From an uncultured Spartobacteria bacterium (GTDB lineage Bacteria > Verrucomicrobiota > Verrucomicrobiia > Chthoniobacterales > Terrimicrobiaceae), in the NCBI GenBank assembly GCA_937890535.1, contig CALBXK010000313.1, positions 1-38,313 on the forward strand: 38,313 bases of DNA. Direction: 5' to 3'. The stretch's first letter is position 1, and each line of letters begins with the position of its first letter. Position numbers and translations under genes: made by a program. Under the pieces are notes generated by a model that saw only the letters and a list, made by a program, of their open reading frames with translations, did not search any database and had not been told where the DNA came from. This document shows, in pieces, positions 24,420 through 38,153 of this stretch.

Positions 24420-24435
24420 GGGGAAAAAGGCAAAA

Positions 24436-24605
24436 CCTGAGACCTGAAACCTGAGACCTGAAACCTGAAAGAGGGCGCAAGCGCCCGAGTGCCGGTCCGG
24501 GCCCCGGGAGAGTGGGAAGTGGCGGGTGCGCAACAACGCCCCATCCCGGATCCAGAATCCGCTTTTTCCTTTCAGCTTTCAGGTCTCAGCTTTCAGGTTT
24601 CAGGC
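24436..24605. repeat. Composite intergenic repeat element A: CTGARA-type tracts at both ends (inverted) plus hairpin GGGCGCAAGCGCCC and GAGTGCCG
   Basis: Left tract CCTGAGACCTGAAACCTGAGACCTGAAACCTGAAAG; core hairpin 24473-24486 followed by GAGTGCCG 24487-24494; right tract CTTTCAGCTTTCAGGTCTCAGCTTTCAGGTTTCAGG (inverted). Confidence 0.7.
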
Positions 24606-24611
24606 TTCTCC

Positions 24612-34082: not shown

Positions 34083-34094
34083 GGGAAGAAGAGA

Positions 34095-34216
34095 GAGTTG
34101 AAATCTGAAACTTGAGATCTGAAAAAGAAATGGAAAATAATTTTCCGTGCTTGCACGGCACTCCTGGGCGATTGCGCCCGCCTTCAGGTTTCCGGTTTCA
34201 GCTCTTCAGCTTTTTC
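34095..34216. repeat. Composite intergenic repeat element B (same architecture as element A, opposite core orientation)
   Basis: GTTGAAATCTGAAACTTGAGATCTGAAAAAG ... hairpin CCGTGCTTGCACGG (34145-34158) ... CGGCACTC (34156-34163) ... GGGCGATTGCGCCC (34166-34179) ... CTTCAGGTTTCCGGTTTCAGCTCTTCAGCTTTTTC. On the reverse strand: GGGCGCAATCGCCC-AG-GAGTGCCG, as in element A. Confidence 0.7.
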
Positions 34217-36115
34217 TTGAATCTTTCGAACTTTGAGTTCTGCAAAGAGCGATTCATAGCGATCGACGACGAGGTCCCAGTTGAAATGCGTTTGGGCCCG
34301 CTCGAGGGCGAGGCGGCGAAGTTCTTCACAGCGTTCGGGATTGTCCGCCAGATCCGTGAGTTTCTTCGCCAGGGATTCCACCGGATCCGCCGGGTCGAAG
34401 GGCTCAGCAGCATCGCCCACCACCTCTCTCGTTGCCGGACAGTCCATATAGAGGATCGCCGACCCCATGCCGAGCTGATCAAGGAGGACAAGGCGGGTGG
34501 CCTCGATATCCGCCGGCATGACGAAGAAAAGGGCGTTTCGGCTCAACTCAACGTAGGCATTGTCGTAGCGGGCCCCGGTGAAGATGACCCGATCGTCAGC
34601 CAGAGATTGGAGACGGCGGTAATGGGCCTGTTCGTAGTCGGCCGCTCCGCAGATGACAAGTTTCAGCGGGCCACGATATTTGGCGAAGGCCAGCAAGAGC
34701 GTGTCGGCCTGATTTTCGGGGGTGAGACGGGACACAAACAAAATATACTCCCGGGGTTTCAATCCCCAGTGCTCGAGCTCCTCGTGGCCCAAGGTGCCAA
34801 CCCGAATGTTTGCTCCATAGCTCAAATAGAGCGGTCGGGTTTGATAGTCCTGTTCGTAGCGGGCGACGATTTCCTGGTTGTCGGCGATGATGCGGTCGGC
34901 CATCCGGGTGGCCCAACGCTCGCTCAGGTGCAACCAAAACCTACCGAAGGTACTCCATTTTGACCGGCGGAAATCTGCCCCGTCCACATTGATGATCACC
35001 GTCTTGCCGCAAAGGCGCAGAAATCCACCGATGAGGGCGTTGCCCACTCCGCAGAGATAGATCAGGTCGTAATTTTTCCCCAGCGCGTGCAGGGCGGAAA
35101 GCGCGGTGTGGCTGATGGTGTCGAGGTTCTTGGTGGGGATGGTGGGCAGAGTGTGAATCCGCATTCCCTTGTAGAGTTTTGTATGGGGATCGAAGCGGGG
35201 ATAACGGTTGTAAACCGACACGTCATAGCCGCGGCCAACCAACCTCTGACCGAGTTGCTCGACCACGGTCTCGAATCCGGAATAACGCGCCGGAATTCCC
35301 CGGGAGCCGAGGAACGCAATACGGGGCCGGTGCGCTGAAAGACGTGTCGGGGTTCCCAATAATCCATCCCGCAGTAGATAGTAGAGGAAAAGCGAATTGA
35401 ATTTGAGGTAACGGGCTCCAAGTCGCCGTGGTTCCTGGCTCAGCCGATAGAGCCAGGTGAGACCCCGATTTTGCATCCAGGGCGGCGCGTACGGTCGGGC
35501 CCCCGCCAGGAGTTCAAAAGCGTCACCGACAGCGAAGAAGACTCCGCGGGTGTGGCGCTGAAGATTTTTCATAATCCACCGTTCCTGCCGCTCGCCCCCG
35601 AGAGCCACCCAAATAAAATCAGCGGAGCTCTTGTGAATCATTTCCGCGAAGGTCTCCTCATCCTCTTCCGTCCAGGCGCGGAATGGGGGAGAATGGGTTC
35701 CCGCAATTTTGATGTCCGGTTGAATTTCCTCTGCGGCCGCGACCATGCGCTCGAGGCATTCTGGGGTTCCGCCAAAAAAGAAATGTTTCCAGGGTTCGGG
35801 CGTATGGGTCAGGACATGACGCATCAGGTACGGCCCGTAGACCCGGTCTGGGAGTTTTGCCCCCTGAGCATTGAGCCGCCAAATCAAGGGATAGCCGTCC
35901 GGAACGACCAGGTCGAAATCCGCCATGACGCCATGGAAACCCGCATCGGCCCGGGCCAGCGCAATCAGATGGGTGTTGCAGGCAGAAACCGCGCCCGGAA
36001 TTCCGCTCTTCGCCATGCCGAGGCAGGCTTCCAACGCAGTCTCGTAGTTGACCGAATGAATATTGGTCCCCAGAACCGGGAAGACCGGAATCGAGGGCTC
36101 GGTTTCTGCGGTCAT
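34184..36115 (-). CDS. Fusion: N-terminal WecG/TagA/CpsF family glycosyltransferase plus C-terminal GT4 (DUF1972/rhamnosyltransferase-like) domain
   Basis: N-term: VPDGYPLIWRLNAQGAKLPDRVYGPYLM, FFFGGTPECLERM, ADFIWVALGGERQERWI. C-term: RPRIAFLGSRGIPARYSGFETVVEQLGQRLV, EYILFVSRLTPENQADTLL. Confidence 0.9.
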   Translation of the reverse strand: MTAETEPSIPVFPVLGTNIHSVNYETALEACLGMAKSGIPGAVSACNTHLIALARADAGFHGVMADFDLVVPDGYPLIWRLNAQGAKLPDRVYGPYLMRHVLTHTPEPWKHFFFGGTPECLERMVAAAEEIQPDIKIAGTHSPPFRAWTEEDEETFAEMIHKSSADFIWVALGGERQERWIMKNLQRHTRGVFFAVGDAFELLAGARPYAPPWMQNRGLTWLYRLSQEPRRLGARYLKFNSLFLYYLLRDGLLGTPTRLSAHRPRIAFLGSRGIPARYSGFETVVEQLGQRLVGRGYDVSVYNRYPRFDPHTKLYKGMRIHTLPTIPTKNLDTISHTALSALHALGKNYDLIYLCGVGNALIGGFLRLCGKTVIINVDGADFRRSKWSTFGRFWLHLSERWATRMADRIIADNQEIVARYEQDYQTRPLYLSYGANIRVGTLGHEELEHWGLKPREYILFVSRLTPENQADTLLLAFAKYRGPLKLVICGAADYEQAHYRRLQSLADDRVIFTGARYDNAYVELSRNALFFVMPADIEATRLVLLDQLGMGSAILYMDCPATREVVGDAAEPFDPADPVESLAKKLTDLADNPERCEELRRLALERAQTHFNWDLVVDRYESLFAELKVRKIQEKAEELKPET

Positions 36116-37158
36116 GACGCCTTTCGATTGCTAGCTCGTTGCCGCAGTGAGTGACCGGCCCGGCCTCCCGCCGGTCGTCCTCTCACTGCTCCGTGCCAGA
36201 GGCAGGACAGCGCATCTTGAAGCGTCTGCCATCGCAGCCCGTGGGTGCGAAGGAAGCGCCGAAAATTCCCCGGCAAATACGACTTCATGTGACGACTCTC
36301 TTCGGCATGAAATGACAGGTAGCTGAGATTTTGCAGAAGGGAACAAAACTTCAGATAGCTGGCCTGATTGATTTTGGATGTTGGATGTTGGATGTTGGAT
36401 GGGTGGTCGGCTGCGGATTCCAGATCGTATGCCTCCATCTCTGCATTTGTTTCTCTTCCCCTTTGTGTCCTTTGCGTGAGATCCTCTTTAATGTTCTTCG
36501 GCGGAAGGTGAGGAACGGCAACGAGGCAAGTGAACACGGCACGATTCTTGGCCGCAATCCGCATCGAATATTCGAGATCCTCCCCCAGCATCCAAAAGTC
36601 CGTCCGATGCAAGGGTGTGGAGTCCAAGGCGGTTCGACTCACCAAAAAACAAGCCCCGGTGCACCAGCAAAATGGGAGCGGTTCGGCCCCCAGAAGCTTT
36701 CGTGCTTCGCCGGCAGTTCTGGCTTCCCGGATTTTCTGACGGGCCACTCGGTCCACCGGTTCTGGAAAAGCCCAGAGGTGTTCATCGGCACCTTCCAGCA
36801 AGGGGGCGATGGCCCCGGCTTGGCCGCGTTCCATCTCTTGCCAAAGAAGTCCAAGATCCGTCGCGGATATCACCACGTCATCATCAAGATACCAAAGCGC
36901 CTCAAGATCGGGAAATTGCACCAGCGCCTGCCGGGCGGCGTTGGCCCATCCAGCGCCAGGTCCGGGATTCGAAGGATCTTCTAGAACGACCGTTTCCCAG
37001 GGGGTCGCTCTCGCCAGCCCATGGGTGAGGCCGTCCGGCGCATGGTCCGAGATGACACATCCGGTCAAAGGCAGCTCAGAAGCCGCCAACCCCTTCAGCA
37101 AACGCCGCAACTCCGCCGGGCGCTTATGAGTAACAATGGCGGCGACGATGGAAGGCAT
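36112..37158 (-). CDS. Glycosyltransferase family 2 carrying a low-complexity insertion-like tract
   Basis: MPSIVAAIVTHKRPAELRRLLKGL, LWYLDDDVVISATDLG, FWMLGEDLEYSMRI. The tract EDLTQRTQRGRETNAEMEAYDLESAADHPSNIQHPTSKINQ sits between more protein-like sequences. Confidence 0.82.
   Translation of the reverse strand: MPSIVAAIVTHKRPAELRRLLKGLAASELPLTGCVISDHAPDGLTHGLARATPWETVVLEDPSNPGPGAGWANAARQALVQFPDLEALWYLDDDVVISATDLGLLWQEMERGQAGAIAPLLEGADEHLWAFPEPVDRVARQKIREARTAGEARKLLGAEPLPFCWCTGACFLVSRTALDSTPLHRTDFWMLGEDLEYSMRIAAKNRAVFTCLVAVPHLPPKNIKEDLTQRTQRGRETNAEMEAYDLESAADHPSNIQHPTSKINQASYLKFCSLLQNLSYLSFHAEESRHMKSYLPGNFRRFLRTHGLRWQTLQDALSCLWHGAVRGRPAGGRAGHSLRQRASNRKAS
36374..36401. repeat. Heptamer microsatellite (TTGGATG)x4 inside a glycosyltransferase ORF
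   Basis: Direct reading: ttggatg ttggatg ttggatg ttggatg, perfect for 28 bp. Confidence 0.95.
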
Positions 37159-37277
37159 GGGGGGAAGGGCGAAAAGCTAAAAAGCTGAAAAGCGAAAATA
37201 ATAAAGGTGGACGGAAGGGGAAACAATCTTCGGAATTGAGAAACTCCGTTATTCGGACCTTTCCGCTTTTTAGTGTA

Positions 37278-38153
37278 TCAGCTTTTCAGCATTTTCCACC
37301 GGCGAAGGGTCCAGTCGAGGGCCTCGTGGACCTCGCGGAGGGTGATGCCGGTGGCAGCGAGTTTGTCGCTGCTGAGGATACAGTTTGCACGTTTGACCCG
37401 GCCGGGTACGGCCAGAAAATCCTCTTCGCTGGGAAAAAACTGAAATTCCCGGTCGCAGAGTCCATGCTGGCGGAGGGCTTTCGCCACTTCGCTCGTACGA
37501 ATGGCCCCGGGGTTGGTCACATTGTAGATGCCGGGTGGAATGCGGCGTTCCAAGGATTCAATACAGGCGGCGGCAAATTCCTGAAGTTGGGAAATCGAAT
37601 TATTCACTTCCAAGAGCCGTTCATAGCGCATGAGTTTGGTCAGGTAATTTCGCTCGTGATCAAACTGATCAAAAGGAATCCGTAACCGCCAGATCGTACA
37701 GGTCGAACTGTCCGCCAACACGGTTTCGGCCATCGCCTTGGTTCGGCTATACCAACTGGCGTTCGGGTGGCTGAAGGCAAAGTTGGGAGCATCATTTTCG
37801 GTGAAAGGGGTTCCGTCCGGTCGAGATCCATCGTAAATACACCCGGACGAGACATGGCCGAAGGGAACCTTTTGGGCGGTTAAGACTTCTCCCAGCACAC
37901 AGGGGACGGTGGTGTTGGCCGTGAGCGTGAGACTCTTCTCCTGCTCCGTGGAATCAATATTAGGTCGGCCGGTGTAGCCGATGGCATTGATGACATAGCG
38001 AGGCTTCAGCGTCCCCACCATTCGGGCGACCGCATCCTTCGAGGTGGCATCCAGATCCTGGTGCGACGGAGCCGCAAAGACCAGACCCCGGGACTGCAAA
38101 TTGTTGGCAAAGGCCTGGCCGACATAGCCGTGGCCACCAAGAAGAAGAATCAT
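37278..38153 (-). CDS. NAD(P)-dependent sugar-nucleotide epimerase/reductase (dTDP-4-dehydrorhamnose reductase-like)
   Basis: MILLLGGHGYVGQAFANNL, YVINAIGYTGRPNIDSTE, VSSGCIYDG, SWYSRTKAMAETVL. Confidence 0.85.
   Translation of the reverse strand: MILLLGGHGYVGQAFANNLQSRGLVFAAPSHQDLDATSKDAVARMVGTLKPRYVINAIGYTGRPNIDSTEQEKSLTLTANTTVPCVLGEVLTAQKVPFGHVSSGCIYDGSRPDGTPFTENDAPNFAFSHPNASWYSRTKAMAETVLADSSTCTIWRLRIPFDQFDHERNYLTKLMRYERLLEVNNSISQLQEFAAACIESLERRIPPGIYNVTNPGAIRTSEVAKALRQHGLCDREFQFFPSEEDFLAVPGRVKRANCILSSDKLAATGITLREVHEALDWTLRRWKMLKS

Follow-up and report, generated by a model that had tools for sequence, protein, structure and literature searches.

An in-frame insert with intergenic-type repeat sequence in the linker of a Chthoniobacterales GT2-family glycosyltransferase

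We have found a net 105 nt of additional DNA within a gene for a GT2-family glycosyltransferase of a Chthoniobacterales bacterium. The insert follows the GT-A domain and precedes a conserved C-terminal helical domain, leaves the reading frame open ahead of a conserved C-terminus, and resembles dispersed repeats at one of its ends. It probably represents intergenic-type repeat DNA that was inserted or accreted in frame in this lineage alone and is tolerated in the linker of the enzyme. We infer that the DNA derives from intergenic repeats, that the enzyme tolerates it, and that it is nearly neutral; a selected switch is not indicated.

Methods

The window, by which we mean the whole 38,313-nt stretch of DNA that was analysed, is contig C313 of a 3.7-Mb, 410-contig metagenome-assembled genome (MAG) belonging to the Chthoniobacterales. 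A search of 147 genomes recovered relatives of the glycosyltransferase in 42, its own genome not being counted. Alignments were made with MAFFT using 29 homologues from this search and, separately, 16 proteins from named public MAGs, the organisms being partly shared between the two sets. Tandem arrays were surveyed in 205 kb of the genome, made up of the window and 20 contigs picked by number (167 kb), and genes in this sample were called by a simple hexamer method, with no curated annotation. The protein was modeled with AlphaFold using a 17-protein alignment as input.

Results

A first-pass annotation of the window had described a glycosyltransferase ORF containing an intergenic-type repeat tract with a perfect heptamer array. 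Both the ORF, which encodes a Pfam GT2 domain, and the array, which is exact, were confirmed at the following positions:

36112..37158, (-) strand: GT2-family glycosyltransferase gene, 348 aa, with a GT-A domain and a C-terminal helical domain (residues 265-347)
36364..36480, (-) strand: in-frame insert, putatively repeat-derived, net +105 nt / 35 aa relative to homologues, edges uncertain by ~10 nt
36461..36480, (+) strand: CTTTGTGTCCTTTGCGTGAG motif (coding strand CTCACGCAAAGGACACAAAG), an intergenic-type repeat at one end of the insert
36374..36401, (+) strand: perfect (TTGGATG)x4 array at the other end of the insert, (CATCCAA)x4 on the coding strand

The gene product matches Pfam Glycos_transf_2 over residues 7-171 (E 6.6e-8), and the solved folds closest to its AlphaFold model (mean pLDDT 87.7) are those of GlfT2 galactofuranosyltransferases and other GT2 enzymes. 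DDD at residues 92-94, GED at 192-194, and H217 are invariant columns across 17 homologues, and all are N-terminal to the insert. Homologues in public genomes come almost entirely from Chthoniobacterales/Verrucomicrobia MAGs, and protein-level identity to the nearest genome (G001) is 61%. Identity to the same-genus homologue is about equal on the two sides of the insert (61 and 63%), and the codon-position pattern of the N-terminal part (0.32/0.24/0.55) resembles that of the C-terminal part (0.33/0.27/0.54); the part that follows the insert thus shows no signs of decay. Because the sequence past the insert is conserved in frame, the assembled copy reads as intact.

The insert is absent from relatives. 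Residues 2-225 were matched in all 42 genomes and residues 263-346 separately in most, so that most relatives match in two separate blocks, and none of the 42 matches across the insert. In both alignments, the homologues have a single 35-residue gap where the tract lies, within KEDLTQRTQRGRETNAEMEAYDLESAADHPSNIQHPTSKINQ, and when set against the 29 homologues from related genomes, the insert is carried by the protein of the window alone. In the same-genus homologue, a short linker connects HLPP to KFCSLLQNLSYLSFH; the edges of the insert are inexact because homologues have a short, variable linker (hinge) at that place. Insert codons score among the lowest 0.5% of 3876 gene windows of 36 codons, which is a descriptive figure since the windows overlap. 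The net length is a multiple of three without an in-frame stop, so a full-length enzyme is still encoded. Model confidence is high on both sides (pLDDT about 90 or more for most of both flanking domains) and falls below 50 at residues 222-261 only, and the insert therefore looks like a disordered linker loop of ~40 residues in the predicted structure. The proposal that an intergenic-type repeat tract had been inserted into the coding region is well supported; the tract is not normal coding sequence shared with any aligned homologue.

The CTTTGTGTCCTTTGCGTGAG motif has seven other copies in the genome at two or fewer mismatches. Four of the seven other copies of the CTTTGNGNCCTTTGCGTGA motif directly adjoin Pfam-identified genes, and none is inside such a gene. 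A second full copy of the insert was sought in the genome, where only fragments of up to ~35 nt match, and nothing there convincingly resembles the middle ~50 nt, so that no single inserted element could be identified. Neither a target-site duplication of at least 6 nt nor a hairpin was found at the insert, whose RNA folds worse than shuffled sequences (z +2.37), and no Rfam families were found in the window. A mobile element bounded by inverted repeats with CTCACGC...GCGTGAG ends was also considered, and a patterned search found none. By eye, some copies of the motif (L011 and L014) seem to have inverted arms, which the insert itself does not.

A further repeat, AACCAGCGCGATAGCGCAGCCTGCAGTGGGTCACAAAATGTTTGGCCGGGAGGC, is present in two closely spaced copies at the end of the contig (38195-38313). 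Sequence similar to it adjoins the repeat motif in locus L008, and it is probably a dispersed repeat at which the assembly stopped.

Tandem Repeats Finder (TRF) reports the heptamer array as 4.6 copies at 96%, and chance alone would be expected to produce ~1e-6 perfect 4x7 arrays, whatever the unit, in 3.7 Mb. (TTGGATG)x3 is found nowhere else in the genome, where the unit forms this one array. Periods of 7 and 14 are nevertheless the commonest in the 205-kb sample, accounting for 18 of 27 tandem arrays (rows of the two periods partly overlap) as compared to ~0.2 in shuffled sequence. Other than that of the glycosyltransferase, the sample arrays are intergenic, lie at the end of a gene, or are found before or near a probable start. 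Three had been called inside other ORFs; however, that of L078 is at the gene end and those of L075 and L092 are before or near the likely true start, which leaves the glycosyltransferase array as the only heptamer array that is clearly gene-internal in the sample.

(TTGGATG)x3 is present in four other genomes of the 147 searched. The arrays examined there adjoin genes or fall between them, often as inverted pairs, and none of the flanking ORFs checked has an array within a Pfam domain. One of these genomes (G139) has about ten TTGGATG arrays, many of them inverted pairs flanking a short loop between genes. Its intergenic elements (L101, L102, L103, L105, L107, and L109, around position 1501) comprise CATCCAA arms, a loop often starting with TGGCGCAAGCG, and inverted TTGGATG arms. 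Within the window, positions 24420-24611 between convergent genes form one long hairpin (-96 kcal/mol, or -106 on the other strand) with arms of (AAACCTG)-type heptamers and a loop that holds GGGCGCAAGCGCCC. Long inverted repeats with short-period arms occur in L092 (14880-14999) and L084 (14174-14345), the units being AATTAAG heptamers and CACAGAGGA-type units.

The glycosyltransferase gene sits in a syntenic exosortase/EPS operon of surface-polysaccharide type, with the following neighbors:

34184..36115, (-) strand: WecG/TagA-GT4 fusion gene, downstream of the GT2 gene, in the same order in relatives
37278..38153, (-) strand: RmlD-like NAD-dependent reductase/epimerase gene, upstream of the GT2 gene, same operon

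Relatives share the order RmlD - GT2 - WecG/GT4 - GT2 and, if the locus extends far enough, exosortase EpsH beyond it. The start codon of the WecG/TagA-GT4 gene shares 4 nt with the GT2 stop (ATGA). Two other junctions of this operon, 34083-34183 (101 nt) and 37159-37277 (119 nt), are long relative to the roughly 0-30 nt seen there in relatives and contain 7-8-nt tandem repeats, which suggests that accretion of repeat DNA has affected the operon more than once.

Discussion

In the explanation we favor, repeat DNA landed in the linker between the catalytic GT-A and C-terminal helical domains in this lineage only. The insert would be composed of the CGCAAAGGACACAAAGG motif, ~50 nt of other sequence, and a heptamer array that may have grown by slippage to four units. 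The gene would still specify a full-length enzyme, now with a disordered loop of ~40 residues that is presumably tolerated because it is placed between folded domains. The heptamer array may occasionally change in length.

The first-pass annotation had read the array as a possible slipped-strand switch for surface glycan structure, with gain or loss of one unit shifting the frame and removing the C-terminal ~90 residues. Under phase variation of this kind, the frameshift would leave the C-terminal helical domain either missing or scrambled, and the exopolysaccharide would change in a subpopulation. We consider such a switch possible but improbable. A perfect 4x7 array of a non-triplet unit within a gene is unusual and compatible with it, as is the location in an operon of surface-polysaccharide type, and in H. 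influenzae, heptanucleotide simple sequence repeats (SSRs) with three units or more were considered candidates for phase variation (PMC2651432). In silico, with three units the protein terminates after residue 266 (stop at 36351) and loses 82 residues, five units give 344 aa with a scrambled, out-of-frame tail (stop at 36131), and one, four or seven units remain in frame. The expectation that a change of one unit would remove the C-terminal ~90 residues accordingly holds for loss of a unit but not for gain, which yields a wrong tail without truncation. As the GT2 stop overlaps the next start by 4 nt, translational coupling to WecG-GT4 could be affected as well, and a switch would perhaps weaken it. 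Against this, the array is absent at the same place from all aligned homologues, truncation results from just one of the two single-unit changes, and repeats of the same class are mostly intergenic. The array is located at ~73% of the ORF, past all catalytic motifs, whereas SSRs are described as suppressed mid-gene and enriched toward the ends of genes, most strongly at the N-terminus (Lin and Kussell, in the form cited in PMC4692102). Although the array exceeds the permissive three-unit threshold of PMC2651432, as SSR contingency loci do, its four units are few when compared to the 13-38 heptamers of hmw1a/hmw2a of H. influenzae, which are promoter tracts of over ten units with observed length variation (PMC2651432); the array described here is in the final third of an ORF and is known from one genome's sequence. 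The insertion of intergenic-type repeat thus stands, while its proposed role in phase variation finds little favor.

A more elaborate version, that of a young contingency locus born of intergenic repeat capture, with three translational states (intact, truncated, and scrambled tail) of the EPS glycosyltransferase and, via the overlap, of the downstream WecG-GT4, is less likely again. We would assign similarly low likelihood to an array that is unstable without selection, a fortuitous and weak hypermutable site giving rise to occasional null alleles. In its favor, the perfect units suggest recent slippage expansion, and tandem arrays in the sampled genome are mainly of periods 7 and 14. Finally, misassembly of the metagenome, joining an intergenic repeat into the gene, is very improbable: repeats promote misassembly and the MAG is in 410 contigs, but the operon matches that of relatives in gene order to both sides, the insert leaves the frame exactly intact, and (TTGGATG)x4 is unique in the genome.

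The insert shares features with several known systems. STRR-type heptanucleotide repeats, including those of Calothrix/Nostoc, GGGAATC in Xanthomonas and TAACTGA in Beggiatoaceae, are scattered and mostly intergenic with a minority in genes (PMC4692102, PMC4679880). The repeat class of the array described here is likewise one of tandem heptamers that are dispersed and mainly intergenic, although TTGGATG itself makes up just one array in its own genome, where it belongs to a longer composite tract within one gene, and is not a G-quadruplex-type unit. Rickettsia palindromic elements are selfish repeats found in frame in protein-coding genes, where the extra segment is tolerated (PMC10969869). 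The present insert resembles them as a putatively repeat-derived, in-frame segment in a conserved gene, but it differs in having neither a palindrome or stable hairpin nor a second full copy, and in its shorter net length. In Borg proteins, tandem repeats also create disordered regions; however, the unit lengths of their in-gene repeats are divisible by three (PMC9879509), unlike the heptamer.

For this verrucomicrobial group, the literature searched held nothing specific about tandem repeats or phase variation. The insert offers a clean example of intergenic repeat DNA that apparently came to encode part of a conserved enzyme, and many relatives show the corresponding empty site. For now it is a modest curiosity; should the heptamer turn out to vary, it would illustrate how a contingency locus can arise by repeat capture, in a group for which no such loci appear in the literature searched.
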